Made by a program: the position numbers and the translations under genes
The notes under the pieces: generated by a model
Database searches by the model: none
Seen by the model: only the letters and a program-made list of their open reading frames with translations
What the model was told of the DNA's origin: nothing
Shown: one piece after another, positions 8,524-34,967 of the stretch
Layout: the number at the start of each line of letters is the position of its first letter
How positions within the stretch are numbered: position 1 is the stretch's first letter
Assembly: GCA_023301795.1 (NCBI GenBank)
Contig: JALZVU010000153.1
Coordinates: 1-35,954 of the forward strand
From: Granulosicoccus sp.
GTDB lineage: Bacteria > Pseudomonadota > Gammaproteobacteria > Granulosicoccales > Granulosicoccaceae
Direction of reading: 5' to 3'
Length of the DNA stretch: 35,954 bases

Positions 8524-8539
8524 ACAGTATTACTCCGAG

Positions 8540-9484: not shown

Positions 9485-9537
9485 TAATTTTATCCTGAGG
9501 CAGTTAGGTGCCGAAGTTGTATTAGTATTGCTATCAA

Positions 9538-11361
9538 CTAGCTGCTTTTTGACACTACTGAGGCACATAGCAGGACAAATAGCAGTGCTGATATGCATTG
9601 CCAGAATCGCACTGGGTGTCGCTCAGCCAGTGGCATACGACTGGCTTGTCGAGTAGCCTCAGAGCTGGGCTTGCGCAAATCTGCGAGAAACTCAGAATAG
9701 GCAACGTGCCGCAATTCGGGTCGGGTTGCCAATGACTTCTTAAGTGCAAACTCAACCCAGTAGGGTAGGTCAGCTCTTATCTGCGATAAGGGCTTGCTAA
9801 AAAAGGTCGGGGCATGTGCATAGCGTGTTGATGATGTTTGTGCGCTGAGTGTGGGTAGTGATCCTGTCAGGGCCTCATAGGTGATCGCGGCCAGAGCATA
9901 TAAATCGGATTGCCAGTCCGCAATGCCATCATGATTTTCCGGTGCAACGTAACCAATGGCTCCAACGGGCAGATCTTCTGGTAATGATGTTCCTAGCTCT
10001 TCCAACCCATCCACACGTGCGGTGCCAAAATCAATGATGGTGCAATGACCATTGGAATCAACGATGACGTTTTCAGGCTTGAGATCACGATGAACGATTC
10101 CTGAACGGCGCAGAACACGCAAGCCATCGACTATGCTCGATAGTAGAGGCCTGATATCGGTCAATGTGGGCGTGGGATGGTCAATCATCCATTGACGTAA
10201 GGATTCACCAGCAACCCGTTCGGTTAGCGAATACAAGAATGGAGAATCTGCTGATGTCGGTATTCCTTTGGGCAGGCTAGGGTGATCGAAGCTCTCCATC
10301 AGCCAGCACTCGCGAGCAAAGCCTTGTAGATACACAGCATCATCAGTAAAGTTTCTTGACGGTGCCTTCATAACGTATTCACGAGCATCCTTGTCGCGAC
10401 GAACCAGATAAACATGGCTGCGTGTACTCTGATGAAGGGTACCGAGTACCTCCAGATCGTCGATACGCATACCTTTGCTCAATGCAGGAGGGATGATGAC
10501 CGCCAGCGCTCTTCTGCGTATCTCTCCCTCGTCGCGTGGCGGTAGCGATGTAACGCGGGCAAACAAGCACGTGGCATCGTCAAGTTCATCAACGGTGGTT
10601 GATCTGGCTGAGTCCAACACCTGCGCTGAAGCCTTTTCGAGATTGTTATGGCAGTGCGCTAGCGAGCTAGTTAACCATTGCGCCACTTGGGAGATAGGTA
10701 GATTGCCGTGAACACCATCTGTTGTAAGCGCAATCACATCGCCTTCACGAAGATTGGTCTCGAAGTGATCCAGCTCTACTGATCTGTCAGCTCCCAGAGC
10801 TCGAGCAAGCACTTTGCGACCGTTGCTTCTTGAGTGATGATCTCGCGTAAGTGGTTGAGCGTCGTCTTTTCTAATAAGCCAGGCACGACTATCGCCTGCA
10901 TGAAAAACATGCGCAGTGCATGACTTGATAACAATGGCCGTAAACGTGGTCATAAGGCCGTCGCCGTCTGCTTCGCCAGCACGATTAGCGGCATTCTGAG
11001 CAAACAACCATCCATTGAGCGTGTTGACAGTCGCCGCTGCACAATCTCTGACGCTGCGGGTGGATGCTGAGCCAAGATACTCATCGATAAATTCTGTTAC
11101 AGCCAGCTCACTGGCGACACGCGATGTGGTGCTGGATCCTACGCCGTCGGCTATTGCCATGACCACACCCCGATGTTTACGCAGTTCCGGGTCATCGGGC
11201 TGACAGGCTGCGAAGGAATCGCGGTTGGGGCCGTGCGTTCCAGCAAGGCTTGTTCCCCCAAAGAGCACCACAGGTGAATCTACCTGTGCCTCGTTGGAGG
11301 CGAGTTTGGTGGCTGGCATTTCTGGGTGCTCAGCATCGATGTGCGCAAGCGTGCTTACCAT
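9538..11361 (-). CDS. Bifunctional PP2C-type phosphatase / Ser-Thr protein kinase, membrane-anchored
   Basis: About 607 residues. The N-terminal PP2C domain (about 35-275) has GPNRDSF, the metal-binding D-G (IADGVGSS), HAGDSRAWLI and TTDGVHGN. The C-terminal Hanks-type kinase (about 305-560) has a VMK lysine, HRDLKPEN catalytic loop, IDFGTA metal motif and VAPE. The glycine-rich loop is degenerate (LGTLHQSTRSHVYLV, only the first glycine kept). A single hydrophobic C-terminal segment (FWQCISALLFVLLCASVV) anchors it in the membrane. The same fusion sits between nitrate transporter and nirB genes in Pseudomonas (PA1782 locus), so the placement is conserved. The start is uncertain: ATG 11361, with GTG 11364 and TTG 11370 also in frame; none has a strong Shine-Dalgarno. 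Its target proteins are unknown. Confidence 0.92.
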   Translation of the reverse strand: MVSTLAHIDAEHPEMPATKLASNEAQVDSPVVLFGGTSLAGTHGPNRDSFAACQPDDPELRKHRGVVMAIADGVGSSTTSRVASELAVTEFIDEYLGSASTRSVRDCAAATVNTLNGWLFAQNAANRAGEADGDGLMTTFTAIVIKSCTAHVFHAGDSRAWLIRKDDAQPLTRDHHSRSNGRKVLARALGADRSVELDHFETNLREGDVIALTTDGVHGNLPISQVAQWLTSSLAHCHNNLEKASAQVLDSARSTTVDELDDATCLFARVTSLPPRDEGEIRRRALAVIIPPALSKGMRIDDLEVLGTLHQSTRSHVYLVRRDKDAREYVMKAPSRNFTDDAVYLQGFARECWLMESFDHPSLPKGIPTSADSPFLYSLTERVAGESLRQWMIDHPTPTLTDIRPLLSSIVDGLRVLRRSGIVHRDLKPENVIVDSNGHCTIIDFGTARVDGLEELGTSLPEDLPVGAIGYVAPENHDGIADWQSDLYALAAITYEALTGSLPTLSAQTSSTRYAHAPTFFSKPLSQIRADLPYWVEFALKKSLATRPELRHVAYSEFLADLRKPSSEATRQASRMPLAERHPVRFWQCISALLFVLLCASVVSKSS

Positions 11362-11445
11362 CACTTGCAAGCCGCACGTATTCGAGGAGTCGTCATTTTG
11401 ATCTTCACATACTCTGGTTGTTTATTCAAAACTTAAGGCCGTGGG

Positions 11446-11473
11446 GATCGGGCACTGTGGAACGTGCCCGATC
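11446..11473 (-). promoter_or_regulatory. Intercistronic hairpin between transporter and kinase genes
   Basis: Perfect 10-bp stem GATCGGGCAC/GTGCCCGATC with an 8-nt loop, starting 8 bp after the MFS stop codon. No U-run follows in the direction of transcription. It may be an attenuating or mRNA-stabilising stem that separates high transporter expression from the downstream enzymes. Confidence 0.6.
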
Positions 11474-11480
11474 ATGTCTA

Positions 11481-12947
11481 CTAGCTAACAGGGATCAAGG
11501 TGACCTTGCCGTGCTCGTCTACCTCAGCGATTTCGCCGGTAGGCTCATCGAGCATTAACAGAGCACCAAAACCTACTACTGCAGTTCCTGCAATGACGAG
11601 GAAAAATGTGCTGGGAGGTACCATTGAGTAGATAAGCAGGTACACAACCGCACCAACATTTCCATAGGCCCCTGTCATGCCCGCTATCTGACCTGTCTGG
11701 CTTCGCTTGATCAAAGGCACTACTGCAAACACTGCACCTTCACCGGCTTGTACAAAAAATGAGCAAGCCATGACGGCGAGTACCGCCAGTACTAAAGGCC
11801 AGCTAGAATTTACCGTAGACATCAAGAGGTAACCTACCGCCAGACCAGCAGTCAGTATCAACAAGGTTCTTCGGCGCCCATATCGATCAGAGATCCAGCC
11901 TCCACCGGGACGCGACATCAGGTTCATGAAGGCATAGCCTGAAGCGAGCATGCCAGCAAGCACGGGTGTCAGTTCGAACGTATCAGCGAAGAACAATGGC
12001 AACATAGAAACCACAGCCAGCTCAGAGCCGAACGTTGCGAAATAAAGAATACAGAGCACTGCCACTTGCTTGAAACTGAACTGCTGTGCAGTTGGCATTG
12101 TTTCGGTAAACACTTTCTTGTTTACTTTCCAGACTAGTGATAATTCGTAGATGAACAACAGTACCAGTCCGAGGTAGATAAGGTTGGTGCTCATCTGAGA
12201 AATCATGTCAACACGCGCTGGCGATAGGCGCCAGGCTAGTACCGCTAGCGCTATGTACATAGGCACTTTCATGATGATAAGAAAGAAGAAATCATTTTTA
12301 CTTGTGATTTCCATAGCGCCAGACTGCTTTGGCTTGTAATAGGTAGAACCTTTAGGCGTGTCGCTGGTGTTGCTGTAGTAGATAAAGCCCATGACAAAAC
12401 TCATTAGGCCCGTAACCGCAACGGCCCAACGCCAACCATCGTCTCCACCGAATATCAATGCAAGCGTTGGTAGCGTAAAGGCTGCAGCAGCTGATCCGAA
12501 ATTTCCCCAACCACCGTAGATACCTTCGGCGGTGCCCAGCTCATTGTGTGGAAACCACTCACTCACCATACGGATACCAACAACAAAGCCTGCCCCGATA
12601 GCGCCGAGTGCAAAACGTGCGATGGCAAGCTGTGTGTACGTCTCAGCAAAAGCAAAAACAAAGCAGGGAATTGACATGATGATCAACAGTGCTGAATACA
12701 CAAGCCGAGGACCATAGCGATCAGTCAGGCCACCAACAATAACGCGTGCCGGAATTGTCAATGCAACGTTTAACACCAGTAAGGTTGTGATCTGCGCATT
12801 GGTCAGGCCGAAGGTCTCTTTGATCGCCTGCAGCATGGGTGCAAGGTTGAACCAAACGGCAAAGGTGATGAAAAACGCGATCCAGCTAAGATGCAGGATT
12901 TTCATTTTTCCTGTAAAAGCCAACAGGTTAAAGCGTTCGGTTGTCAT
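11481..12947 (-). CDS. MFS nitrate/nitrite transporter (NarK/NasA-NNP family)
   Basis: 488 residues with about twelve membrane segments. It takes up nitrate for assimilation. MFS motif A is visible as GGLTDRYGPR. The two nitrate-signature segments of the nitrate/nitrite porter family are present: ALGAIGAGFVVGIRMVSEWF followed by GGWGNFGSAAAAF, and AGMTGAYGNVGAVVYLL. The arginine in GIRMV corresponds to the substrate-binding arginine of the first half. The ATG at 12947 is preceded by AAGGG at 7 bp. The frame is open 23 codons further upstream, but that extension is poor coding sequence. It is the first gene of the operon and is preceded by a long untranslated region. Confidence 0.95.
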   Translation of the reverse strand: MTTERFNLLAFTGKMKILHLSWIAFFITFAVWFNLAPMLQAIKETFGLTNAQITTLLVLNVALTIPARVIVGGLTDRYGPRLVYSALLIIMSIPCFVFAFAETYTQLAIARFALGAIGAGFVVGIRMVSEWFPHNELGTAEGIYGGWGNFGSAAAAFTLPTLALIFGGDDGWRWAVAVTGLMSFVMGFIYYSNTSDTPKGSTYYKPKQSGAMEITSKNDFFFLIIMKVPMYIALAVLAWRLSPARVDMISQMSTNLIYLGLVLLFIYELSLVWKVNKKVFTETMPTAQQFSFKQVAVLCILYFATFGSELAVVSMLPLFFADTFELTPVLAGMLASGYAFMNLMSRPGGGWISDRYGRRRTLLILTAGLAVGYLLMSTVNSSWPLVLAVLAVMACSFFVQAGEGAVFAVVPLIKRSQTGQIAGMTGAYGNVGAVVYLLIYSMVPPSTFFLVIAGTAVVGFGALLMLDEPTGEIAEVDEHGKVTLIPVS

Positions 12948-13020
12948 TGCGATGCCCTTTTCAGATGATGTGTTGGTACAAATGATGGGCAGGACAGTAG
13001 AGCCAAGGACATACACGTGT

Positions 13021-14816: not shown

Positions 14817-15392
14817 ATGTATGGGCTTGTGAATAAGGCAGTCGAAGATCTCGTCATCTCCAGTGCAGGGTTGGAAACATGGCAGCGGGTCAAGGCACAC
14901 GCTGCTCTGGAGAATCTCCAACTACTTGACACCACGAACTACGAGGATGAAATTACCTATAGCCTCGTTCATTCAGCAAGTGCCATTCTGGATATGCCTG
15001 TTGACGTACTACTCCACGCCTTTGGCCGACATTGGGTGCTTTACACAGGGGAAGCGGGTTGGGCAAAATTGTTTTCTGCTGGAGGCGATGACTTTGTCAG
15101 CTTTCTTGAAAATCTTGATGAAATGCACGCCCGAGTTAATATGGCGATGCCAGACGGACGCATGCCGGGTTTCAGCCTGACGGAGAATAACACCGGTTTC
15201 ATGCTTGATTACCACAGCTCACGCCAAGGTTTTGCACCTATGGTGCTTGGTGTTCTGGAGGGCTTGGCAGAACAGTTTGAGGAGGACTGGACTTTCGAAC
15301 ATGTTGATACACGTGAGCAACACGGTCTGGATACATTTCAGCTAATCAGAGAGACGCCTGTGGTCGTCGGCAATCTACGCAATGCATCTTGA
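14817..15392 (+). CDS. H-NOX heme nitric-oxide sensor
   Basis: 191 residues, the length of a stand-alone H-NOX domain. It binds heme b and senses NO in the cytoplasm. The proximal heme ligand is H104 (LDEMHARV), the conserved proline is P117 (MPGF), and the propionate-binding Y-x-S-x-R motif is Y132, S134, R136 (DYHSSR). The residue five after R136, which is the distal tyrosine in O2-binding H-NOX proteins, is P141, so NO-selective binding is expected. The ATG at 14817 follows a G-rich ribosome binding site (AGGGGGG). Its end overlaps the HNOBA-GGDEF-EAL gene by 11 bases. This is the classic pairing with a cyclic-di-GMP enzyme seen in Shewanella and Legionella. Confidence 0.95.
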   Translation: MYGLVNKAVEDLVISSAGLETWQRVKAHAALENLQLLDTTNYEDEITYSLVHSASAILDMPVDVLLHAFGRHWVLYTGEAGWAKLFSAGGDDFVSFLENLDEMHARVNMAMPDGRMPGFSLTENNTGFMLDYHSSRQGFAPMVLGVLEGLAEQFEEDWTFEHVDTREQHGLDTFQLIRETPVVVGNLRNAS

Positions 15393-17172
15393 ACAGGCAG
15401 TTTTCTCGAATTCAGAGCTAAACCGGGTATTCCCATTTCATATTGCCATTTGCAAAAAATCAAGCAATGTCATTGTTGGTGTCGGCGCATCACTGCAAAA
15501 AGTGATCGGAGATTCATGGCATAACAACTCCCTTGATCAGATCTTTGAACTGGCTCGCCCCCGAAATACGGAACTTGATTTGGATGCAATGACTGCATCT
15601 GACAAGACGTTTGTTTTTCACCACAGGTTCAGCCCTTTGTCACTGCGCGGCTTATTTGTCGCGTTGCTCGACAATCAATTTATTTTTATTTGTAGCGTAG
15701 AAGTGATGACCCAAAATACGCTAAAAGAGTTGGGTCTAGGTATTAGTAATTTTGCCAAGAATGATCCCACTCCAGACATTATTATCTTGCACCAGTTTAG
15801 AGATTTGCAGCTACTTGATCAACAGAAACAAATTGAAGAACTAAGAAAGCTTGTTGTTGCTAGGGATACGTTTGATCAATACGCAAACACGGATGCTATG
15901 ACCGGCATAGGTAATCGCCGACACTTTTGGGCTCAGGGCTCAACCATGTTAAATGAAGTTTCTGAGGGTCAAAAAACTACCATATTATTGCTGGATCTGG
16001 ATGGATTCAAAGCTATTAATGATACTTACGGACATGATGTTGGCGATGAGGTTCTGAAGGTTGTGGCAACACGGTGCCAGCAAACGGTATCCGACCATGG
16101 CATTGTTTCTCGCCTCGGTGGAGATGAATTTGTAGCGCTTTTTCGCCTAGACAACTTAAACGCCGTAGGTGCGTTGGTAAGCAGTCTGATGGATGCGATA
16201 TCAGCGCCCATGGTCTGCATGAATAGACATCTTGTCGTCAGGCCCAGTATCGGGGTCTCTAGCCTCGACAACATGCAAAACATGGACGAGGCCATACACT
16301 ACGCTGACCTTGCGATGTATGAAGGGCGAAAAAAATCGAAGGGAACGATAAGTTGGTTTACGCCTGAAATGCAAGCGAATGAGGATCACCGCAAATCATT
16401 ACTGAGCGACATTGCTCAGGGAATACAGAATCGTGACGTTATTCCGTACTTCCAGCCGATTGTCGATATTCGTAAACAATGCGTCTATGGATACGAGGCA
16501 CTGGCGCGGTGGGAGCACCCAATTCATGGTCTGATGTTTCCGGGTGAGTTTATAGAGTTGGCAGCGGAAGCTGGTTGTCTGCATGAGTTGGATTACTGGA
16601 TCCTCGAATCGGCACTTGATCAACTCGCAGTGTGGGACCAACAAGGGAGTAAATTTTCTATTCACGTCAATTTTTGTGGAACGTCAATTCGGCACGGTCT
16701 GGATACAAAAATTATGAAATTGCTTTCAGAGCGACGAATAAAAGCGTCACGCCTGATGCTGGAACTGACTGAAACGACGTTGCTGGAATTTGAAGCGCCT
16801 GAGAAAAAAATACTTGATGACCTAGCAGCTCAAGGTGTGATCATTCAGTTGGATGATTTTGGCACAGGCTACTCCTCACTGACTCATCTGCACAATTTCC
16901 CAGTCAACGGTGTAAAGCTGGATCGCAGTTTCTTACTCAATTATCCAAACAATAAGCGCTGTCTTGCGCTTATTAAATCAGTATTGGGTATGACTCAGCA
17001 TTTGGACATGACGGTGGTGACCGAGGGTATTGAAACTCTTGAGCAGCTACAGTGGATTGAATCCATTGGCTGTCGCTATGGGCAAGGTTACTATTTTGGC
17101 AAACCTGCTCCAGCACAAGAGTGCCTTGTTGCGCTGGAGTCTTGGGTACCCACTCACGAGAAAGCGGCATGA
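15382..17172 (+). CDS. H-NOX-associated cyclic-di-GMP enzyme: HNOBA-GGDEF-EAL
   Basis: 596 residues. The N-terminal part (about 12-160: LNRVFPFHIAICKKSS...LDQIFELARPR) matches the heme-NO-binding-associated (HNOBA) domain that docks to H-NOX. A short helix (RDLQLLDQQKQIEELRKL) leads to the diguanylate cyclase domain with an intact GGDEF (246-250). The inhibitory RxxD site is missing (SDHG at that position). The EAL phosphodiesterase domain has EAL at 372-374, ELTET, DDFGTGYSS (D491, D492) and VTEGIET, so its catalytic residues look complete. Both synthesis and breakdown of c-di-GMP are possible. By analogy with known H-NOX/HaCE pairs, NO-bound H-NOX would shift the balance towards breakdown. 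The start overlaps the H-NOX stop. Confidence 0.94.
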   Translation: MHLEQAVFSNSELNRVFPFHIAICKKSSNVIVGVGASLQKVIGDSWHNNSLDQIFELARPRNTELDLDAMTASDKTFVFHHRFSPLSLRGLFVALLDNQFIFICSVEVMTQNTLKELGLGISNFAKNDPTPDIIILHQFRDLQLLDQQKQIEELRKLVVARDTFDQYANTDAMTGIGNRRHFWAQGSTMLNEVSEGQKTTILLLDLDGFKAINDTYGHDVGDEVLKVVATRCQQTVSDHGIVSRLGGDEFVALFRLDNLNAVGALVSSLMDAISAPMVCMNRHLVVRPSIGVSSLDNMQNMDEAIHYADLAMYEGRKKSKGTISWFTPEMQANEDHRKSLLSDIAQGIQNRDVIPYFQPIVDIRKQCVYGYEALARWEHPIHGLMFPGEFIELAAEAGCLHELDYWILESALDQLAVWDQQGSKFSIHVNFCGTSIRHGLDTKIMKLLSERRIKASRLMLELTETTLLEFEAPEKKILDDLAAQGVIIQLDDFGTGYSSLTHLHNFPVNGVKLDRSFLLNYPNNKRCLALIKSVLGMTQHLDMTVVTEGIETLEQLQWIESIGCRYGQGYYFGKPAPAQECLVALESWVPTHEKAA

Positions 17173-17506
17173 TGAATCGCAGAATAGGCGCCTGAATCGA
17201 TCTTGTTCGGTATTAGAGCGCTTTACAGTTGCTGCAGCACGCCAGCTGAGTCTAGGGACCATCTACAGCCCACACAACGCGCCGCATAACATAACTACGG
17301 CCATGCCAACTCCATTTAGCAGGTAAGTCCTGATGATAATCACAGATGATCTTACATGATTGATGGATGAATAGTGATTCATGATTTGTCGTACATGCCG
17401 ATAGAAGCAATGGTGCAAACGCAATAGAGTATCTCGTCGCTATGACACTCCAACTGTTTCTTTGGTCGCATACTCTGAAGGTGGTATGTAATGCCGTTGT
17501 ACCTCA
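17173..17506 (+). other. Intergenic region with right repeat copy, upstream of CHASE kinase
   Basis: 334 bp without a gene. It contains the right copy of the 27-bp direct repeat and a small stem ATGAAT/ATTCAT around 17367-17382. The kinase promoter should lie here, but no clear -35/-10 pair was found. No rho-independent terminator follows the GGDEF-EAL gene. Confidence 0.6.
17227..17253. repeat. 27-bp direct repeat, right copy
   Basis: Identical over 27 bases to 14594-14620. Here it lies in non-coding DNA downstream of the GGDEF-EAL stop. It still carries the esterase-like codons LLQHAS and stop, with an in-frame TAG 15 bases upstream. This suggests a relic of a second esterase 3' end. Confidence 0.95.
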
Positions 17507-20500
17507 ATGAGCAATTTCGACCATGATCTTAATTCAACTAAAGGCCTGCTCTCTATTCCGATCATAGTGCTCGTTGCTGGGTTAACGACGACTGCCATTG
17601 GCTGGTTTTTCGCAAATAAATTTGTCGCAGAGCATGATGAACAGCGCTTCACAATGGAAGCTAATCATCTTGCCTCTAAAGTGGTGAAACGAATCTCCAG
17701 ATACGAAGACGTTTTGCTTGGTGGTGTCGCACTATTTAGTGCCTCATCTCATGTATCACGAGCAGAGTGGCACGCCTATGTAACCCAGCTGGAGGTGGGC
17801 AAGCGACTACCGGGTATTCAAGGCGTCGGTTTTGCCGAGCAATTTCATTCGGAAGAACTCGTTGCCCACATAGACGCAATGCGTGCAGAAGGCTTTGTGG
17901 ACTACAAGATACGACCCGCAGAACCGCGGAGAGTATACACATCGATTATCTATCTGGAACCGTTTGATTGGCGCAATCGTCGAGCTCTTGGATTCGATAT
18001 GTTTTCAGAGCTCAATCGTCGTCAGGCAATGCAGCGTGCTCGCGATATGGGTGAATTCGCGATGTCTGGTAAGGTTGAATTAGTCCAGGAAACGAACAAT
18101 GACACACAGGCCGGTTTCCTGCTTTATCATCCAGTCTATAAAAATGGGATGATGACATCAACGGTTGCTCAACGGCGTCAGGCCCTGCAAGGTTACGTTT
18201 ATAGCCCATTTCGCGCTAACGATTTAATGCGTGGCATTCTTGACGATGGACTGTCAACTATCAGTTTTAAGGTCTATGACGGCGAATTGAGTGATGATGC
18301 CACTTTGTTGTATGACGGAAATACCGATTTATCAGAGTCCATAACAACTGAGGATAAATCACATTACACATCAACATTGACCGTGGAAGTGGCGGGCCGG
18401 CAATGGACGTTAGAAATATATTCCACGCCTTGGTTTGAAGTCGTTCAAGACAAAATGTTTTCGTACACCATTGTCGGTGCTGGGCTTCTGCTGAGTGTGT
18501 TGATGTGTGTGATAGCGGGGATGTGGATGTCGACCCAACGTCGTGTGGATAGGCGGACATCGGAGCTACGGACCCTGGAACTGATTAATAGCCGTATGTT
18601 GGAAAATCTTGCGGATGGTGTGGTTGCGTGTGATGCGAGTGGTCAGTTGAATTTGTTCAACAAAGTTGCGCGTGACTGGCATGGTATGGATCCAAGCCAA
18701 ATGCCGCAAGAGCAGTGGGCCGATTACTACGATCTATTTCACGGTGATGGCAAAACTCCCTTGCAGCAGCATGAGATCCCTCTTCTCATAGCGCTTAACG
18801 GTGAGCACATCCGTGATATTGAAATGAGTATCGTTGCTAAAGGCGAAGCACCGCGATTCGTGCTTGTCAGTGGTGGACCAATAGAAGGTCCGAAAGGAGA
18901 GACATTGGGCGCAGTTGTGGTGATGCGTGACTTGAGTGAGCGTAAACAGGCCGAAATGGAAGTACAGCGGCAACAGCAATTTTTGCGGCAAGTCATTGAC
19001 TTGAGTCCCCATCTAATCTTTGCCAAAGATCAGCAAGGCCGCTTTGTGTTAGCCAATGAGGCCGTTGCCCAATTTTATGGAACAACGGTGGCGTCGCTTA
19101 TCGGAATGCTGGAGTCAGACTTCAATAACGATAAAGAAGAAATCGAAAGCTTCTCAAAGAAAGAGCAATGGGTTTTATCATTCTGGGAAGATCAAGTAAC
19201 ACCGGAAGAGAAGATTACAGGTGCTAACAGCAAAGAGCTCTGGATGCATACAGTGCGACGACCCATTATGTCGATGAAAGATGACATTGAGCTTGTATTA
19301 GGTATCTCAACGGACATCACAACCCAGCGGCGTTACGCCAAGGATGTCCTAGAACTTAATGCGAATCTTGAGCAACGTGTTGTGGAGCGAACAGCGAGAT
19401 TGCAAGGAGCGAATGCCGAACTTAAGACTTCCAAATTGGAAGCTGAACAGGCGAATCATGCTAAATCCACATTTCTGGCTGCTATGAGTCATGAGATTCG
19501 AACGCCAATGAATGGGATTATCGGTATGGTTGAAGTGCTTGCCCATAGCCGTCTGGATACGGGACAAAAAGATGCAGTACACACGATTCAAAATTCTGCA
19601 TTCGCACTGCTGAGCCTCATTGACAACGTGTTGGACTTCTCCAAGATTGAAGCTGGACGACTGGATCTTGAACACATGCCGGTTACCCTCTTTGAGTTAG
19701 CTCGCGAGACCTGCTCTTCACTGTCCCAGATGGCGCATCACAAGGGCGTTGATCTTACATTATATGTTGATCCTCAGACGCCGCATGAGATCTGGTCTGA
19801 TGCAACACGACTGCGTCAAGTGCTCTACAACCTGATCGGTAATGCCATAAAATTCAGCGGTGGAAGGGAAGATGTACGAGGTCGAGTATCAGTGCTATTA
19901 GCCGCGTCCGAGGTGCAGTTTCCTCATGTTGCCTTGATCGTCAAAGACAACGGCATTGGAATAGAAAGCGATACTGTTACCAGATTGTTTGACTCTTTCA
20001 GCCAAGCGGAAAATTCAACGACACGACGCTATGGCGGCAGCGGACTAGGTCTGGCCATTTGTAAGCGACTAGTCGATTTGATGGATGGAGAGATTCTAGT
20101 TGAGAGTGAGCCAGGCGTTGGGTCGACCTTTACCGTCAAGCTGCCTATTGACGTCAATGCTGAGACCACCATCGGTGATTTACCTTACGTGGAAGATCTG
20201 GATTGTGTGGTGGTGCCCGGCGAATTCGCAAGCTCCACCGACCTGTTTGCCTTGCTTAAGCCAGCTGGTGCTCGTGTGCACGTAGCCAAGACTATCGCGA
20301 AAGCGATTGAATGCGCAAAATCGCTACCGTCAGCGATCATTATCATTCAAGACTTCCGGCGCAATCGTGCGTCTATTCCAAAGTCACGCTTACTTAAAAT
20401 CTCCGAATCGGTCCCCGAAGCTCGTGTATTGCTGTTGACCTGGAACCGGCCTCATCGCAAACAGATGATGGAGATTAACGTTGTGATGCATGACGGTGCG

Positions 20501-21427
20501 GCGTTGGAACAATTGAGCTTCCTGAAAGCTGTTGCCATTGCTGCCGGTCGTCGGTCGCCTGAAGACTTTGTAGATACACACGTACAGGCACTATCGCACG
20601 ATCAAAGACCAGTTGTTAGCATTGCAGATGCTCGCGCACAAGGCCGTTTGATACTGGTAGCCGAAGACGATAGCACCAATCAGAAAGTTATTCTGCGACA
20701 ACTCCAGCTACTGGGCTATGTTGCTGAGGTTGCGGCCGACGGTGTCAAGGCCCTCGATCTATGGCGAAACAACCAGTACGCATTACTGTTAACTGATTTA
20801 CACATGCCAGACATGGATGGCTACGAACTGACAAAAGCCATTCGTGCTGAGGAATCTGCTGGGGTACGTCTACCAATCATTGCTCTCACGGCCAATGCTC
20901 TGAAAGGAGAGGCAATTCGCGCAAAGCAAGCTGGTATGGATGATTACATGACGAAACCTGCTCAGTTGCAGCTGCTAGAAACCAATCTTAGTCACTGGTT
21001 GGGCACACAAGAAAAATTGCTGGAAGCTGCTAACGATGCAAAGCTTCCACTGGAAACTAGTCAGCGAGTACAGCGTATTGATCTGAGCGTTCTGACGGAT
21101 CTTGTCGGTAGCGATGAGGATACGTTGCAAGAATTACTTAAGGACTACTTACACACAGCAAAAGATGTAGCCTGCGAGTTACATGAAACTGCCGTCCCTG
21201 AGGACGCAAGCCGAATCAAGCAATTGGCGCATAAGCTGAAATCCTCATCACGTGCAGTTGGAGCACTCTCATTAGGCGATACATGTGCAGAGCTTGAGAA
21301 CGCATGTAGCGTGTCAGACTATGTAGTAGTCATTGATAAACTAGCCGAGTTTAAGTCGCGATTTGTTGCTGTTGAAGCACAGATTGTTGCGCGACTAAGC
21401 GATCCGGATATCGGTGCGAGACGTTAA
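17507..21427 (+). CDS. Hybrid sensor histidine kinase: CHASE-PAS-PAS-HisKA-HATPase-REC-HPt
   Basis: 1306 residues. Membrane segment 1 is at about 16-38. A periplasmic CHASE domain follows (LPGIQGVGFAE; YLEPFDWRNRRALGFDM), then membrane segment 2 at about 322-345. Two PAS domains (about 360-480 and 490-610) and a coiled linker lead to HisKA with H662 (MSHEIRTPMNG). The HATPase domain has N, G1 (DNGIGI) and G2 (GGSGLGLAI) boxes. A degenerate receiver-like stretch precedes a receiver with phospho-acceptor D1097 (LTDLHMPDMDG), and a C-terminal HPt domain has H1242 (LAHKLKSSSR). The architecture is a full phosphorelay of the BarA/ArcB type with an external ligand sensor; the ligand is unknown. The next gene encodes a receiver protein 64 bp downstream and is the obvious output. 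No strong ribosome binding site precedes the ATG at 17507. Confidence 0.94.
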   Translation: MSNFDHDLNSTKGLLSIPIIVLVAGLTTTAIGWFFANKFVAEHDEQRFTMEANHLASKVVKRISRYEDVLLGGVALFSASSHVSRAEWHAYVTQLEVGKRLPGIQGVGFAEQFHSEELVAHIDAMRAEGFVDYKIRPAEPRRVYTSIIYLEPFDWRNRRALGFDMFSELNRRQAMQRARDMGEFAMSGKVELVQETNNDTQAGFLLYHPVYKNGMMTSTVAQRRQALQGYVYSPFRANDLMRGILDDGLSTISFKVYDGELSDDATLLYDGNTDLSESITTEDKSHYTSTLTVEVAGRQWTLEIYSTPWFEVVQDKMFSYTIVGAGLLLSVLMCVIAGMWMSTQRRVDRRTSELRTLELINSRMLENLADGVVACDASGQLNLFNKVARDWHGMDPSQMPQEQWADYYDLFHGDGKTPLQQHEIPLLIALNGEHIRDIEMSIVAKGEAPRFVLVSGGPIEGPKGETLGAVVVMRDLSERKQAEMEVQRQQQFLRQVIDLSPHLIFAKDQQGRFVLANEAVAQFYGTTVASLIGMLESDFNNDKEEIESFSKKEQWVLSFWEDQVTPEEKITGANSKELWMHTVRRPIMSMKDDIELVLGISTDITTQRRYAKDVLELNANLEQRVVERTARLQGANAELKTSKLEAEQANHAKSTFLAAMSHEIRTPMNGIIGMVEVLAHSRLDTGQKDAVHTIQNSAFALLSLIDNVLDFSKIEAGRLDLEHMPVTLFELARETCSSLSQMAHHKGVDLTLYVDPQTPHEIWSDATRLRQVLYNLIGNAIKFSGGREDVRGRVSVLLAASEVQFPHVALIVKDNGIGIESDTVTRLFDSFSQAENSTTRRYGGSGLGLAICKRLVDLMDGEILVESEPGVGSTFTVKLPIDVNAETTIGDLPYVEDLDCVVVPGEFASSTDLFALLKPAGARVHVAKTIAKAIECAKSLPSAIIIIQDFRRNRASIPKSRLLKISESVPEARVLLLTWNRPHRKQMMEINVVMHDGAALEQLSFLKAVAIAAGRRSPEDFVDTHVQALSHDQRPVVSIADARAQGRLILVAEDDSTNQKVILRQLQLLGYVAEVAADGVKALDLWRNNQYALLLTDLHMPDMDGYELTKAIRAEESAGVRLPIIALTANALKGEAIRAKQAGMDDYMTKPAQLQLLETNLSHWLGTQEKLLEAANDAKLPLETSQRVQRIDLSVLTDLVGSDEDTLQELLKDYLHTAKDVACELHETAVPEDASRIKQLAHKLKSSSRAVGALSLGDTCAELENACSVSDYVVVIDKLAEFKSRFVAVEAQIVARLSDPDIGARR

Positions 21428-21491
21428 TCGAGTGAAAATACAATTGATTGATACTCTTACGCTCACCAAAAAAGATCCATAGGAAATCAGA

Positions 21492-22646
21492 ATGAAAAAT
21501 AAAGTACTTTTTGTAGATGATGACGAGACTTTTCTCAAAATCTACTTGAAGGTATTAGGTGAGCGGTTTGATGTATTAACGGCAAGCAGTGGCGAGATCG
21601 CACTCGGTGTTATCGAAGCTGAGGGACCGTTTTGCGTTGTTGTCTCTGACATGCAAATGCCGGGTATGGATGGTGTTGAGCTACTTGAGAGGCTGAAAAG
21701 CACGGCACCAGATACGGTGCGCATAATGCTGACAGGTGTGTCCGATCAAACTGTTGCTGCAAATGCTGTCAACCAGGGTGAGATATTCCGGTTTCTGGCA
21801 AAACCGCCAAAGCGCGAAATGCTTATTGAAGCGGTAGAGGCTGGTATTCGTCAACACCAACTGATTTGTGCAGAACAGGTGCTGTTAGAGCGAACGCTGA
21901 AGGGCAGTGTGGAGGCATTGGCGCATGTATTGTCTTTGTCCGATCCGCAGATATTTGGCCGAACCGAACGTATAACCGAGCTTATGAAAGCCTGCGCGTG
22001 TGAGCTTGATATTGACGATCACTGGGAATTGGAAACCAGTGCAATGTTGAGCCAGATAGGCTGTATTACATTGCCGCATGAGCTCATCGCGAAAACGATA
22101 AGTAATCGATCTTTGAGTCAATCAGAGCAGGCCATTTACGCGCGTTTCCCTGCAGCAAGCGCAGAACTGATCAGTAGAATTCCAAGGATGGAATCCATTG
22201 CGAACATTATTCGCCATCAGCTTAAACGATACGATGGTGGTGGCCTACAAAGTGCGGAGCTAAAAGGTGAGCAAATCCCCATTGGATCACGCATCCTCAA
22301 GGTTCTGCACGATTTTGTTCGTTTGGAATCAAACGAACGAACAAGTGTAAACACGATATTACAAATGGCAAAGAGCAGTAGTCAATATGATCCGAATGTC
22401 ATTGCTGCATTGACAGCGATAGTTAAACGTGAAAATACAGGAGCGTCGGCTCAAGTTGAGGTGGTTGATGTATCACGGCTCAAAGTCAGCATGATTATCG
22501 CGCAGGAGATCATCCATCTTAAAACCGGCGCTGTACTGGTGGGTAATGGTCAAAAAGTAACTGACACGCTCAGCAAACGATTGTTGAATTTTGCAGAGTC
22601 AAAAATGATCGATGTGATGATACACGTACAGAGGCCACCCTTATGA
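21492..22646 (+). CDS. Response regulator: receiver plus degenerate HD-GYP domain
   Basis: 384 residues; the ATG at 21492 has AGGA eight bases upstream. The receiver domain (1-120) is intact: acidic residues D9-D11, phospho-acceptor D53 (VSDMQMPGMDG) and K104 (LAKPP). The second half resembles HD-GYP c-di-GMP phosphodiesterases of the RpfG type, but the signature residues are lost. The metal-binding HD is replaced in SAMLSQIGCITLPHELI (usual form LHDIGKI), and the HHE...DGxGYP segment reads RHQLKRYDGGGLQ. It is therefore probably a non-catalytic binding or partner domain. In Shewanella and Vibrio a degenerate HD-GYP receiver (HnoD) belongs to the H-NOX signalling network, so proximity to H-NOX is suggestive. 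It probably receives phosphate from the hybrid kinase upstream. Confidence 0.9.
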   Translation: MKNKVLFVDDDETFLKIYLKVLGERFDVLTASSGEIALGVIEAEGPFCVVVSDMQMPGMDGVELLERLKSTAPDTVRIMLTGVSDQTVAANAVNQGEIFRFLAKPPKREMLIEAVEAGIRQHQLICAEQVLLERTLKGSVEALAHVLSLSDPQIFGRTERITELMKACACELDIDDHWELETSAMLSQIGCITLPHELIAKTISNRSLSQSEQAIYARFPAASAELISRIPRMESIANIIRHQLKRYDGGGLQSAELKGEQIPIGSRILKVLHDFVRLESNERTSVNTILQMAKSSSQYDPNVIAALTAIVKRENTGASAQVEVVDVSRLKVSMIIAQEIIHLKTGAVLVGNGQKVTDTLSKRLLNFAESKMIDVMIHVQRPPL

Positions 22647-22679
22647 GCTTGACCCAATTTCGATAGAGGTCTTAGATAA

Positions 22680-22907
22680 ACTCTAAAAATTGGTGATGCT
22701 GTGAATATCGGTCAACGGCTTGAGCAGTTAGGTAAGGAGGTCTATCCCGCTGATACTGATGTCTGGATTCTTATTAGCGGTGAAACAGTAGATAAACTCG
22801 TATCTGAATTTACATCTATCGAGGCAGGTAACTACAAACTCAAAGGTCGTTCTGGAGAGATTGAAGTGCTCAAGCTGATTGGAACGGGAAGCTATAGCCA
22901 ATCATGA
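22680..22907 (+). pseudogene. 5'-truncated relic of a class III adenylate/guanylate cyclase
   Basis: The frame encodes IGDAVNIGQRLEQLGKE, then WILISGETVDKL and YKLKGRSGEIEVLKLIG. This matches the C-terminal third of class III cyclase domains (usual form GDTVN.AARLE..., ISEET, LKGR..P..VY.L). The N-terminal part with the metal-binding aspartates is absent: a stop (TAA, 22677-22679) lies in frame just upstream, and no cyclase-like sequence is seen in the preceding gene. The only in-frame initiation codon is a GTG at 22701, which would give 68 residues. It cannot be catalytic. It follows the degenerate HD-GYP regulator by 34 bp, suggesting deletion of a former cyclase gene. Confidence 0.7.
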
Positions 22908-24646: not shown

Positions 24647-24737
24647 GGGCAACAAAGTAGGGGACAGGAAATAAGGATTGGTGCGTAGCAAGATGGCTGC
24701 GTACCGAAAAAAAACATCAATCAGGAGAATAAAAACG

Positions 24738-26510
24738 ATGGTAGACACATCAACCGATCCAGGTCGCTCCGTAGCAGATATGGACGACGAATTACTACCC
24801 GTGCCGGGACACAGACTGCACGGGCCAAAACACTTCCTTGGCCTATATGGTGCGGAACACGTCGCGGCTACCGAGTTCGTCATCGGTGCGGCATTTGTGG
24901 CAATGGGTGCTGGTATCAAGGACATCCTGCTGGGACTCCTCATCGGCAACACACTCGCCGCTTTGAGCTTCTGGCTTATCACCGCGCCAATTGCCGTCAA
25001 AACACGACTTAGTCTCTACACCTACATAGAATACAATTTGGGCGATATGACTTCGCGTATTTATAACGGTGCAAACGTGTTGATATTCGCGGCCATATCA
25101 GCGGCCATGATCACAGTGTCGGCGACTGCGGTTCGGGTACTGTTCGATATACCGCCGCAAATCTACCCGTACCCCAGTAACCTTGCATTTGCTGCTATTG
25201 CAGCTTCTGCGAGTGTGATCGCGGTGTTGGTTGCCTATTACGGTTTCAATGTAGTAGCTGAGTTTGCCACCATCTGCACACCTTGGCTGATGGTGATGTT
25301 CACAGCCGGTGGCATGGTGCTGATACCAGCGTTGAATGAAACTCTGACTGGCTACACGACGTTATCAAGTTTCTCTGAATTCGTGAATCTGGCGGGTGCG
25401 ACCGTGTTTACCGGTGTCAACGCTAATGGAGAACCCGGGATAGGCTTGATAGAGGTTATTGGTTTTGCGTGGGCGGCGAACACGTTTGCGCATTTTGGTC
25501 TGGTTGACATGGCGATGCTTCGTTATGCAAGGAAATCAATTTATGGTCTTTGTACTGCTACCGGCATGATGTTTGGTCATTACGTAGCCTGGATTTCTGC
25601 TGCGCTGATGGGAGCTGCAACTGCATCCATGATGAAGTTGAGTATTGCGGTGGTGTCCCCGGGTGATGTTGCTTATTACGCACTTGGCGCTACCGGTTTT
25701 GTCATTGTTATCATCGCAGGGTGGACAACGGCTAATCCGAATCTGTATCGTGCAGGTCTTGCTGCTCAAGCGGTTTTCCCAAAGGTTCCGCGCCAGAAGG
25801 TGACACTTGCCGTCGGGGCTGTTGTTGTAGTAGGAAGCTGCTTTCCATTTATCTACCGTCAAATACTGCCGATTCTTGCCTATGCTGGGCTTGTACTGGT
25901 ACCCATTGGCGGCATTGTATTCGCTGAGCAACATATCTTTCCCAAGCTTGGGCTTAAGAGCAACTGGCACCGTCTGAAAGGTCTTAAGGACAACAAGCCG
26001 GCACTGATTACCTGGGCGATCTGCCTTGTTTTCGGCTTTGGGTTGAATGCCACGGGCCTCTTGTACTTCGTGTATCTGTTTCTGCCGACTTGGGTGGTTG
26101 CCATTGTCTCCTACACCGTGTTGGCGAAGGCTGCTGGCGCTGGTGCTAGCTATCCTGAAGCCGAACAACGGGAGCAGGATTTTGATAGACGCGTTAAAGA
26201 GCATCATGCCAAGTTAGCAGCGACTGAAAATCACGAATATGTGAAGGACACATCGGCTTTGACCCGTGGAATTCGGTCGATCTGGATCGTCATTGGTCTG
26301 GTAATACCTGCCATTCTTGCCTGGCGCGTCCTGTTCAACAGCCCAGATCTGTACGCATACTATGTCAACCGCGAGATGTTCTACAGCGTGACCATCTGGT
26401 GTACAGCCATCTACTTTGTATTCGCATGGTGGGATTTACAACGAGGCAAGGCACTGCAAAAAGCGGATCAGGCTTCTGCTGCCTCTATGCAGGCTACACC
26501 TGCTACCTAG
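24738..26510 (+). CDS. NCS1-family (purine-cytosine permease-like) transporter
   Basis: 590 residues from the ATG at 24738, preceded by AGGAGA at 9 bp. There are about twelve hydrophobic segments plus a hydrophilic stretch near 480-520 (EAEQREQDFDRRVKEHHAK), then two more segments. The N-terminal GLYGAEHVAATEFVIGAAF and later ANPNLYRAGLAAQ are characteristic of NCS1-type nucleobase/cation symporters (usual NxN..R pattern after helix 8). It would import a nucleobase-like or related compound with Na+ or H+. The long C-terminal extension is larger than in CodB (about 420 residues). It lies 91 bp after the solute-binding protein gene and ends at a strong terminator, so the two may be co-transcribed. 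The substrate is unresolved. Confidence 0.87.
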   Translation: MVDTSTDPGRSVADMDDELLPVPGHRLHGPKHFLGLYGAEHVAATEFVIGAAFVAMGAGIKDILLGLLIGNTLAALSFWLITAPIAVKTRLSLYTYIEYNLGDMTSRIYNGANVLIFAAISAAMITVSATAVRVLFDIPPQIYPYPSNLAFAAIAASASVIAVLVAYYGFNVVAEFATICTPWLMVMFTAGGMVLIPALNETLTGYTTLSSFSEFVNLAGATVFTGVNANGEPGIGLIEVIGFAWAANTFAHFGLVDMAMLRYARKSIYGLCTATGMMFGHYVAWISAALMGAATASMMKLSIAVVSPGDVAYYALGATGFVIVIIAGWTTANPNLYRAGLAAQAVFPKVPRQKVTLAVGAVVVVGSCFPFIYRQILPILAYAGLVLVPIGGIVFAEQHIFPKLGLKSNWHRLKGLKDNKPALITWAICLVFGFGLNATGLLYFVYLFLPTWVVAIVSYTVLAKAAGAGASYPEAEQREQDFDRRVKEHHAKLAATENHEYVKDTSALTRGIRSIWIVIGLVIPAILAWRVLFNSPDLYAYYVNREMFYSVTIWCTAIYFVFAWWDLQRGKALQKADQASAASMQATPAT

Positions 26511-26538
26511 TCGGTAGATGGGTAACCATAGAGAACTG

Positions 26539-26572
26539 AGCGATGCGGTAGGGAGGCCGCATCGCTTATTTT
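26539..26572 (+). terminator. Rho-independent terminator after the NCS1 transporter
   Basis: Perfect 10-bp GC-rich stem AGCGATGCGG/CCGCATCGCT with an 8-nt loop, followed by TATTTT. It lies 28 bp after the transporter stop. On the opposite strand it would also shield the convergent small membrane protein gene, though without a good U-run. Confidence 0.9.
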
Positions 26573-26594
26573 CAAACTCAGAACAGTCATGCCA

Positions 26595-26960
26595 CTACTC
26601 TCGTGGCACGAGTTTCCATTGCAGTAAACCGCATGTGCCAACAAAGGCGGCGACGGCAAGAGACCACACAACCCCCCATGTCGTCGTTATCCAAACTCCA
26701 GTCACCAGTAGCACAAGCGTTGATACAACCCAAACGGCATCACCAAGTGAGAAGAAAAGTACTGCCAGATGGTTTGGCTGCTGTTGGAGACTGACCCATA
26801 TGAGTAGTGCAGCATTTATCAGTAGTGCAGCGCCAAGCAGCTGCAATACTAGAACAGGAGGGCTGCCAACCCAACTAGCGGTTGTGGGTGCAGCGAACAC
26901 GAAGAGTGCGCCAAATAGCGCGCACGACATAGCATTGGCCATGAGTACATATTTCAGCAT
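26595..26960 (-). CDS. Small membrane protein, four transmembrane segments, function unknown
   Basis: 121 residues with four hydrophobic helices (about 5-25, 35-57, 66-88 and 92-113) and a positively charged end (QWKLVPRE). The overall pattern resembles small integral membrane proteins of unknown function. No catalytic motif is visible. It is divergent from the MarR-type regulator, with only 57 bp between the two starts, so it is the likely regulatory target. A role in membrane stress or efflux accessory function would be a guess. Confidence 0.75.
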   Translation of the reverse strand: MLKYVLMANAMSCALFGALFVFAAPTTASWVGSPPVLVLQLLGAALLINAALLIWVSLQQQPNHLAVLFFSLGDAVWVVSTLVLLVTGVWITTTWGVVWSLAVAAFVGTCGLLQWKLVPRE

Positions 26961-26988
26961 TGTAGTTCTGTTCGCATCTTGTTAGTCT

Positions 26989-27026
26989 GGTTGACAACAT
27001 AGCGGAGTCTAGTTTTTATGTCAACC
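26989..27026. promoter_or_regulatory. Candidate MarR operator, inverted repeat GGTTGACA / TGTCAACC
   Basis: Perfect 8-bp arms at 26989-26996 and 27019-27026, with a 22-bp spacer. The right arm covers the marR-type start codon region. It is in the 57-bp divergent promoter space shared with the small membrane protein. Binding here would repress both genes. Confidence 0.5.
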
Positions 27027-27491
27027 AAGTTAACAAGGAAATCGCCAACGGCTTCTTATGATTTAGTCGCTAGTCATTCGCTAGCGTTAACGCAGTCGTG
27101 TGAAGATTTTCGCGCAAGAATGGTGAATTGGCTTCTACTTCAACTTGAAGATGATGGTTTTCAAAACCTGACACCCAGTCAGCTCTCTTTCCTGGGATCG
27201 TTGGACTGTGGAGTGAATTACGCTGCACAGCTAGCCCGCGTTCTTGGAATCTCACGTCAGGCGGTGCATAAAACAGTACGGGAATTGGAGCGGGCTGGTT
27301 GGCTTACCACTCGGCCAGACGAGCAATTGGGAAATCAGCGTGTCATCGTATTCACCGACGAGGGAGAACGAATGATGTCGCAGGCACGTTTGCACTTCTT
27401 GAAGCTGGACAGCCAATTAATCAAGATATATGGCAAGAAGACGTTAGATGAATTACAAAAGGTGCTGCAATTTGATCCTCTATCGACGTAG
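27018..27491 (+). CDS. MarR-family transcriptional regulator
   Basis: 157 residues. The winged helix-turn-helix is clear: LARVLGISRQAVHKTVRELERAGWLTTRPDEQLGNQRVIVFTDEGERMM (about 75-123), including the wing with D and R typical of MarR proteins. Helices on both sides form the dimer interface. It probably represses the divergent small membrane protein and itself. The inducing ligand is unknown. The ATG at 27018 is used; the sequence upstream has no strong ribosome binding site, so translation may be weak. Confidence 0.9.
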   Translation: MSTKLTRKSPTASYDLVASHSLALTQSCEDFRARMVNWLLLQLEDDGFQNLTPSQLSFLGSLDCGVNYAAQLARVLGISRQAVHKTVRELERAGWLTTRPDEQLGNQRVIVFTDEGERMMSQARLHFLKLDSQLIKIYGKKTLDELQKVLQFDPLST

Positions 27492-27505
27492 AGGTACGTG
27501 TTTTT
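27477..27505 (+). terminator. Possible terminator between convergent MarR and OmpR-type genes
   Basis: 6-bp stem CCTCTA/TAGAGG with a 6-nt loop; the MarR stop lies in the right arm. TTTTT follows six bases later (27501-27505). The gap to the T-run makes it weak. A second small stem TGAGA/TCTCA (27514-27528) overlaps the stop of the convergent gene. Confidence 0.4.
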
Positions 27506-27525
27506 CATTTAAGTGAGAGGTTTTC

Positions 27526-28272
27526 TCATTTGATGCTTTCAACCTTAAAGGTAAACTGATAGCCAATGCCTCTAACCGTCTTGATGGCTCTGCTCACACC
27601 AAGTGAATTCAGTTTTTTGCGTAGTTTGGCGATTTTGTTGTCGATTGTTCTATCGTTAGGATTCCAGCTGTTACCTTTAACGTGATCCATTATCTGGTCA
27701 CGCGATAATGCTTGCATAGGGTGTCTAACAAGCACTTCAAGTAAATCAAATTCGGCTGTTGTCAATTCACACACATTACCGTCAGGCGCGGTCAGATCAC
27801 GTGTCTGTAGATCCAGTGTGCACTGCGCAAAACAATATTGATTTATACGTTGCTTGTTGTGAACGTCTGCTGGGTCAGTGTTGTGTTTTTCATTAAGTTG
27901 GCCGCGTCTTAACGCAGATTTTACTCGCGCTAGTACTTCCCGAATTTGAAAAGGCTTGGAGATATAGTCGTCTGCACCCATCTCAAGACCAACAATGGTG
28001 TCCACTAGCTCGCCTTTACCGCTTACCATGATAATGGGAACCGTTGAAATCGCTCTGATTTCCCGAGCAACGCTAAGACCGTCTTCACCCTCCAGGTTGA
28101 TGTCCAGTGTTACAAGGTCGATGTCGTTATCTCTGATAGCGTCGATGGTCTGATCTCTATTCTGTGCCTCCACGACCTGATATGAGTCTAATTCGAACGC
28201 ACGGCGCAATAGCATGCGCACCGCGGATTCGTCGTCAACAATCAAGATAGTCTGTTTGATAGTGGTGCCCAT
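27526..28272 (-). CDS. OmpR/PhoB-family response regulator
   Basis: 248 residues. The receiver domain (1-120) has the acidic pair in ILIVDDES, the phospho-acceptor D in LVTLDINLEGEDG (about D56) and the conserved K in YISKPFQ. The C-terminal winged helix (about 150-245) shows the OmpR pattern ELTTAEFDLLEVLVRHP, SRDQIM, DRTIDNKIAKLRKKL and IKTVRGIGYQF. It binds direct repeats of DNA as a dimer. It is divergent from the Crp/Fnr regulator gene across a 425-bp gap that contains a tandem 10-bp repeat. No dedicated kinase gene adjoins it; the nearby FixL-like hybrid is a possible partner. What it regulates is unknown. Confidence 0.93.
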   Translation of the reverse strand: MGTTIKQTILIVDDESAVRMLLRRAFELDSYQVVEAQNRDQTIDAIRDNDIDLVTLDINLEGEDGLSVAREIRAISTVPIIMVSGKGELVDTIVGLEMGADDYISKPFQIREVLARVKSALRRGQLNEKHNTDPADVHNKQRINQYCFAQCTLDLQTRDLTAPDGNVCELTTAEFDLLEVLVRHPMQALSRDQIMDHVKGNSWNPNDRTIDNKIAKLRKKLNSLGVSRAIKTVRGIGYQFTFKVESIK

Positions 28273-28697
28273 TATTGTTAAGGCGCAAGCATAGTAGATG
28301 TCGAGGACCCTTGAGGGTACTTTAACATTGTTAATGCAGGCTAGCCAACGTGGCGCGAGGGCCCGGAAATATAGCGTCGCTGCGTCCGTTATTCTGGATG
28401 TGCATTACAAACAAATGGCAGGCACATACATGCTTGAGTGGCCCTGGCCTTTGCATTCTCGAAGGGGCTTGAATGGGGATGTTCCTGTATTGATGGAGAG
28501 TTATTCCTCGAGGGAATGGCAGTCAGCAGCTTTAAAACTCCTCGAATTCTCGGTATTAAGCGACTGATCTACCCACGTTACAAATAATTACAAATAAACT
28601 CACTTCGAGATATTCCGATCATATTTTGGTGACATTCATCTGTTTACATGACACTCATGTGCTGGACAAACCAGCAAAATCAGAGGTCACAAAGATC
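28273..28697 (+). promoter_or_regulatory. Divergent intergenic region between the two regulator genes
   Basis: 425 bp with no convincing gene. An 89-codon open frame at 28298-28567 has no recognisable protein features and no ribosome binding site. The main feature is the tandem TTACAAATAA repeat at 28578-28597, about 100 bp before the Crp/Fnr start codon. Around it the DNA is AT-rich and probably contains that gene's promoter. Confidence 0.5.
28578..28597 (+). repeat. Tandem 10-bp repeat TTACAAATAA x2
   Basis: Two perfect copies exactly head to tail, 28578-28587 and 28588-28597. A 10-bp period places both on the same face of the helix. OmpR-family regulators typically bind such direct repeats, and an OmpR-family gene lies next door. 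Confidence 0.85.
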
Positions 28698-29423: not shown

Positions 29424-29463
29424 GACTTTTCGTATCGCTTGGCCCGTATTGTGAGCGTACGCG

Positions 29464-29469
29464 TATAAT
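29464..29469 (+). promoter_or_regulatory. Consensus -10 element TATAAT
   Basis: Perfect -10 hexamer 49 bp before the FixL-like kinase start. The -35 candidate TTGGCC at 29439-29444 is 19 bp away, longer than ideal. It indicates the kinase may be transcribed independently of the Crp/Fnr gene. Confidence 0.4.
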
Positions 29470-29518
29470 GGATGCCACAAACATTCAAAACGCATTCTGC
29501 TGATCAGAGCCTTACCAC

Positions 29519-31432: not shown

Positions 31433-31436
31433 TGCG

Positions 31437-31555: not shown

Positions 31556-31617
31556 AGGGTTAGTGCAGATATATTCTGCGCGTTAACGCCTTTCTCCAGT
31601 GCGCTCACTTGTTGGTT

Positions 31618-34055: not shown

Positions 34056-34063
34056 CCGTGCTC

Positions 34064-34906: not shown

Positions 34907-34967
34907 GGTCAGGTTCCTGTTAGGTTCTGCTTAAACTCGGTTCTGCACTTTTCATGAATTGTCCAAA

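Follow-up and report, generated by a model that had tools for sequence, protein, structure and literature searches.

In Shewanella woodyi, an H-NOX (heme NO-binding) protein adjoins the GGDEF-EAL enzyme SwDGC, which is reportedly switched by H-NOX (PMC8846402), and the term HaCE, for H-NOX-associated cyclic dimeric guanosine monophosphate (c-di-GMP) enzyme, is used in PMC12329717. A second arrangement, HnoX-HnoK-HnoB-HnoD of Shewanella and Vibrio, includes HnoD, a protein with a receiver domain (REC) and a degenerate HD-GYP domain that reportedly acts as an inhibitor of the phosphodiesterase HnoB (PMC8846402). A REC protein with a degenerate HD-GYP domain is also reported under the nitric oxide (NO)-sensing system NosP-NosK-NosR of Burkholderia pseudomallei (PMC12570481). 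Here we describe a block of four genes in a 35,954-nt stretch of Granulosicoccus sp. DNA (contig JALZVU010000153.1), the whole of which is termed the window. The genes lie on one strand and encode, in order, an H-NOX protein, a HaCE-type enzyme, a hybrid histidine kinase with a CHASE domain, and a REC protein whose HD-GYP domain is degenerate (REC-pseudo-HD-GYP). The explanation that we prefer, with a probability of about 0.5, is that these genes form two adjoining signaling units and that the catalytically dead receiver protein is the output of the CHASE phosphorelay.

The open reading frames (ORFs) of the window give the following layout.

14817..15392, + strand: H-NOX (heme NO-binding) protein, 191 aa; PF07700 (HNOB), 137 bits; His104 and YxSxR aligned
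15382..17172, + strand: HaCE-type enzyme, 596 aa, with HNOBA (aa 1–155), GGDEF (aa 168–319), and EAL (aa 343–575); Pfam matches and catalytic motifs
17173..17506, no strand: gap of 334 nt separating the two gene pairs
17507..21427, + strand: hybrid histidine kinase, 1306 aa, with CHASE, two PAS, HisKA, HATPase, REC, and HPt; Pfam matches and phosphorelay motifs
17750..18313, + strand: CHASE domain of the kinase, aa 82–269; PF03924, 220 bits
20651..20983, + strand: REC domain of the kinase, aa 1049–1159; PF00072, 87 bits
21131..21310, + strand: HPt domain of the kinase, aa 1209–1268; PF01627, 37 bits
21428..21491, no strand: gap of 64 nt between the co-oriented kinase and receiver genes
21492..22646, + strand: REC-pseudo-HD-GYP protein, 384 aa, with REC (aa 5–116), HD_5 (aa 142–303), and a C-terminal extension; Pfam matches, HD dyad lost, AlphaFold fold

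All Pfam matches of the four proteins exceed curated cutoffs (HNOBA 51, GGDEF 121, and EAL 212 bits for the HaCE-type enzyme; CHASE 220, HisKA 67, HATPase_c 103, Response_reg 87, and Hpt 37 bits for the kinase, in which PAS is also present; Response_reg 70 and HD_5 123 bits for the REC-pseudo-HD-GYP protein). The GGDEF and EAL motifs, the H-box, the N/G boxes, the REC Asp, and the HPt His were all found on inspection by eye. The first two ORFs share an 11-nt overlap, and no promoter-like or terminator-like sites are reported for the gaps; such scans gave no more sites than shuffled sequences did. An earlier reading of this DNA (the original prediction) had named the same four genes, and its gene content is borne out, but the end that it gave for the block, 22907, lies 261 nt beyond the last ORF.

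The H-NOX/HaCE pair and the search for the four-gene order

Judged by sequence, the first two genes are a known kind of NO/c-di-GMP pair. The proximal His104 and the YxSxR motif (at 132) of the H-NOX protein align with solved H-NOX chains, and the adjoining gene belongs to the HaCE group as an HNOBA plus GGDEF/EAL gene joined to H-NOX. H-NOX carriers make up 25 of 48 genomes of the family, and the genome of the window has one such gene. The pair recurs at four other loci (L118, L119, L125, and the class-level L224). No kinase or REC-HD-GYP gene is present downstream at the three of these that have 3.8 to 7.7 kb of downstream DNA; L118, with just 911 nt after the HaCE gene, was left out of this count. 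Because the pair recurs without the kinase and receiver genes (four other loci, three of them judgeable), we treat the block as two adjoining units. In the H-NOX tree, the window protein lies inside a HaCE-linked group (support 88/92), which together with an HNOBA-kinase-linked group (95/88) is split from HnoK-linked and lone H-NOX proteins at 100/100.

The likeness to S. woodyi, drawn by description and not from S. woodyi sequence, is that of H-NOX beside a GGDEF-EAL enzyme. The window enzyme is HNOBA-GGDEF-EAL, and the window differs in that a CHASE kinase and a REC-pseudo-HD-GYP gene follow. By analogy with H-NOX/SwDGC, the binding of NO to H-NOX would switch its partner GGDEF-EAL enzyme between synthesis and breakdown of c-di-GMP.

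Beyond the window, none of 48 family genomes, 369 genomes sampled from the class, or 398 genomes sampled from the phylum showed the four-gene order, the phylum search leaving out H-NOX, HNOBA, and the kinase. The thresholds were strict: 1e-55 for the receiver, 1e-8 for HNOBA, and 1e-40 for CHASE in the class sample, and 1e-60 in the phylum sample. From the class sample, 20 of 33 new CHASE places were fetched, and none of these 20 loci has H-NOX, FIST, or REC-HD-GYP; at one of them (L337) an HDOD protein is encoded at a distance of 1.2 kb. Co-conservation of the two gene pairs, which would have favored the original prediction, was thus not observed at the three H-NOX/HaCE loci, at the 20 class-level CHASE loci, or among 43 relatives of the receiver, none of which has a CHASE kinase within 3.5 kb. 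A limited literature search found nothing that joins the CHASE domain with H-NOX. Both H-NOX/HaCE pairs and CHASE kinases were known before, and the arrangement in the window is a new variation on them.

The degenerate HD-GYP receiver and its relatives

That the HD-GYP domain has lost its metal-binding residues, as originally predicted, is confirmed by its sequence: the first His is replaced by R, the HD dyad by SQ, HP by FP, and HH by QL, and in addition GYP reads GLQ and the late Asp is His. The REC Asp is kept. In an AlphaFold model of the protein (mean predicted local distance difference test score 88.1), the predicted REC and HD-GYP folds were confirmed by fold search, with matches to the HD-GYP structures 9rbz (Z 21.0, 196 aligned, 4.2 Å), 3tm8 (Z 20.3, 160 aligned, 2.2 Å), and 4r8z (Z 19.8, 190 aligned, 3.0 Å), a result that bears on fold and not on function; sequence searches against solved structures matched chiefly the receiver domain. 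Because the HD-GYP domain is catalytically dead, its output must be binding rather than hydrolysis.

We considered HnoD orthology for this receiver and rejected it, and the analogy with HnoD in the original prediction falls with it. On NF053512, the HnoD/NosR model, the window protein reaches 249.4 bits versus a cutoff of 400 bits, which is passed by all five scanned HnoD-like proteins of the same family (485.6–522.7 bits; the set numbers six, and L143 is the one left out of the scan). No NCBIfam model reaches its cutoff on the window receiver among the best 25 of 65 matches. In a tree of 54 rows, the six HnoD-like rows group together (100/99), and the window receiver falls across a 100/99 split in a clade of 44 that stands apart from HnoD-like and canonical rows. 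The HD dyad is retained in three of the six HnoD-like rows and in none of the 44 clade sequences.

The window also lacks the company of HnoD, namely an H-NOX-linked kinase and the REC-EAL protein HnoB. The original prediction was correct that no H-NOX-linked kinase is nearby, and an HNOBA kinase is present on contig C208 of the same genome. In sum, the window resembles HnoX-HnoK-HnoB-HnoD in having H-NOX and a REC protein with a degenerate HD-GYP domain in one region but differs in being without HnoK and HnoB, and its receiver fails NF053512, belongs to another clade, and is without the coiled linker. NosP-NosK-NosR likewise has a REC plus degenerate HD-GYP protein but differs in the NosR motif (HG-GTP), in its NosP (FIST) sensor, and in that the window protein stays below the NosR cutoff. 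HnoK/HnoD-like H-NOX loci do occur in the family of the window (L121, L134, L137, and L143), with a REC-EAL (HnoB-like) gene in the last three.

Within the clade, the REC Asp is kept in all 20 rows checked, and the nearest rows to the window receiver (L211/L212, L214, and L035) join it with weaker support (98/76, 90/69, and 86/83). Counting the window's own genome, clade relatives occur in 11 of 369 class-sample and 24 of 398 phylum-sample genomes. Further relatives were found in named genomes of Planctomycetota, Nitrospinota, Acidobacteriota, Thermodesulfobacteriota, and Eiseniibacteriota. The named-genome scan kept 80 loci, of which seven entered the clade and three, plus a second L036 gene, became the outgroup; the rest, mostly receiver-domain-only matches, were dropped. 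Note that the clade holds near-copies (L037/L043, L218/L219, L275/L276, and L285/L288), so the 43 relatives are not all independent of one another.

These relatives have characteristic neighbors. A same-strand REC-HDOD gene adjoins 33 of the 43, one kinase type lies within 3.5 kb of 34, and both are present for 31. Pfam confirmed REC-HDOD in all four genes scanned and in L293, which is one of three weak HDOD matches (22 bits, against 56 bits with Pfam), the others being L035 (at a contig edge) and L283 (split). Neither CHASE nor FIST genes occur within 3.5 kb of any of the 43, and H-NOX is near one, L293, a single-contig genome in which H-NOX, a PAS-kinase, REC-HDOD, and REC-pseudo-HD-GYP form one run (L293:6248-10451). 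The window receiver shares the clade of these loci but differs from them in its surroundings, where REC-HDOD and the usual kinase are absent and a CHASE hybrid kinase stands beside the receiver instead. The window protein does not follow the clade pattern at the alpha-1 'specificity' residues of the receiver, and neither does L284, whose kinase is of the usual type. No description of the kinase/REC-HDOD/REC-pseudo-HD-GYP arrangement was found in a limited literature search.

The phosphate donor of the receiver

According to our preferred explanation, the CHASE hybrid kinase would pass phosphate along a His-Asp-His (HPt) route to the REC domain encoded by the gene behind it, as suggested by adjacency and intact motifs. 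Phosphorylation of the dead HD-GYP scaffold would then alter its grip on some c-di-GMP enzyme or effector. A receiver whose clade usually accompanies REC-HDOD and a different type of kinase would here have been recruited to a CHASE kinase. We favor this phosphorelay as the donor because of adjacency, and the two proteins may be coupled, given that 64 nt separate their co-oriented genes and that all phosphorelay motifs are present. Coupling is further favored by L295 and L298, two loci at which the gene for a large HisKA-type kinase is directly followed by a REC-pseudo-HD-GYP gene from a different subclade.

Relatives of the kinase bear on this point. Ten CHASE kinases of the same type are found elsewhere in the genus, with 40 to 47% identity over the N-terminal half and the same CHASE-PAS-PAS-HisKA-HATPase-REC-HPt order (L210 is without the PAS domains). 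Six are neighbored by a single-domain REC gene and four by FIST, GGDEF-EAL, and DUF3080 genes; the window kinase has neither. Because kinases of group A have a separate, adjoining REC gene at all six of their loci and the window kinase is without one, the REC-pseudo-HD-GYP gene may fill that place. In the kinase tree, the window kinase joins neither genus group, and its branch is so long that its placement is unsure. In four genus genomes, FIST, GGDEF-EAL, DUF3080, and CHASE hybrid kinase genes form one same-strand run (L169/L301, L170/L302, L299, and L300), with FIST recognized by Pfam in two and by phmmer in two, and we regard this run as a candidate NosP-type counterpart of the window block.

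Several observations weigh against the preferred explanation. The pairing of a CHASE kinase with REC-pseudo-HD-GYP is found in none of the 43 receiver relatives, and none of the ten other genus kinases, one of which is cut off downstream, is paired with REC-HD-GYP. The receiver clade usually goes with another kinase type, of which C208 carries an example in the window's own genome, and the closest match to the window receiver in that genome is the receiver of the C208 REC-HDOD protein. Lastly, the presence of FIST and GGDEF-EAL genes before four of the ten genus CHASE kinases argues that the association of NO/c-di-GMP genes with CHASE kinases may be a genuine one. These same loci favor an NO link. 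Supported as well is the plain possibility, raised by the original prediction, of two inputs meeting at c-di-GMP, into which both units may feed; physical convergence on the HaCE enzyme is conceivable.

The integrated block of the original prediction would be a single pathway made up of all four genes. Once phosphorylated, the pseudo-HD-GYP protein would bind the HaCE enzyme and tune its EAL activity, so that the NO and CHASE-ligand inputs merge. The four genes are indeed adjacent on the same strand, and the FIST runs place a candidate NO sensor, albeit a different one, and a bifunctional c-di-GMP enzyme before a CHASE kinase. Nevertheless, those runs are without a REC-HD-GYP gene, the four-gene order is seen at no other examined locus, a 334-nt gap splits the pairs, the receiver is not of the HnoD type, and this genome abounds in GGDEF-EAL genes (45 first-look candidates), and a single pathway seems to us rather improbable. 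At the other extreme, the neighborhood could be due to chance, the receiver gene having been displaced from a kinase/REC-HDOD operon and being unconnected with either the CHASE kinase or H-NOX. The REC-HDOD neighbor of most relatives is missing here, guanine-plus-cytosine content is at its window minimum (43%), and the gene order is unique among the loci examined. However, the kinase and receiver genes are co-oriented at close spacing, pairings with hybrid kinases are known from L295 and L298, and the REC Asp and the fold are intact and therefore indicate a receiver under selection, all of which makes displacement improbable.

A different donor is offered by contig C208 (L208:3435-6109; G000:C208), which encodes an HNOBA-kinase (489 aa) followed by REC-HDOD (402 aa), with no H-NOX or REC-HD-GYP gene beside them. 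Six HNOBA-kinases of this kind are found in the family, three directly behind H-NOX (L115–L117) and three not (C208, L273, and L274); REC-HDOD follows in five, and the sixth is cut off. Because of this family habit, the C208 kinase would be the favored donor in a split circuit wherein the sole H-NOX serves the HaCE enzyme in cis and the C208 kinase in trans, that kinase phosphorylates REC-HDOD as well as the window receiver, and the role left to the CHASE kinase is that of a bystander or a second input. The core of the C208 kinase nests (100/100) in a clade whose kinases lie near REC-pseudo-HD-GYP at other loci, apart from HnoK, in a DHp comparison that yields clade placement only. Consistent with such a circuit, the window H-NOX and the HNOBA-kinase-linked H-NOX proteins form one clade (100/100), and L293 has H-NOX, a kinase, and both receiver types in one run. 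Moreover, the window receiver finds its best receiver match in its own genome in that of the C208 REC-HDOD protein (44.4 bits, next 40.0), for which it is in turn the best non-HDOD match (44.9 bits, next 42.1), although both margins are small.

Other observations argue against a split circuit. The L293 kinase has PAS and not HNOBA, and the L293 H-NOX lies outside the clade of the window protein. REC-pseudo-HD-GYP is absent from all five other family genomes with an HNOBA-kinase, and in two genomes with such a kinase (G005 and G001, 90% and 84% complete) no H-NOX was found, so H-NOX may be dispensable for it. We therefore consider this circuit unlikely. A combined form, in which a split NO circuit acts on dead receivers and the CHASE phosphorelay adds an external ligand, so that, independently of HnoD, a single dead receiver would take in both NO and external signals, appears more doubtful still.

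Flanking genes and the dead-receiver family

Beside the NO sensor, on the opposite strand (3141–13016), lie genes for a molybdopterin oxidoreductase, a NirB-like nitrite reductase, a GAF protein, a PP2C/protein-kinase fusion, and an MFS transporter, a cluster that probably serves nitrate assimilation. Downstream of the block, a 610-aa ORF (24678–26510) with no Pfam match at 1e-6 stands behind a gene for an extracellular solute-binding protein. Farther downstream (26518–35953) are genes for a Crp/Fnr-like regulator, a PAS hybrid kinase, an OmpR-type regulator, and a metal P-type ATPase, as well as a cbb3-type cytochrome c gene, which suggest a context of low-oxygen respiration.

What the analysis adds is a multi-phylum receiver family, encoded mostly beside REC-HDOD, all 44 members of which have a dead HD-GYP site, although the phosphorylation site (Asp checked in 20) and the fold are kept. 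Placement of the window protein in this clade corrects a tempting HnoD label, and the family is more interesting than the four-gene block itself. It points to phosphorylation-driven pseudo-enzyme signaling as a recurrent design. If settled, the choice of kinase in the window would reveal whether receivers of this kind can switch from an NO-type kinase to one that responds to an external ligand.

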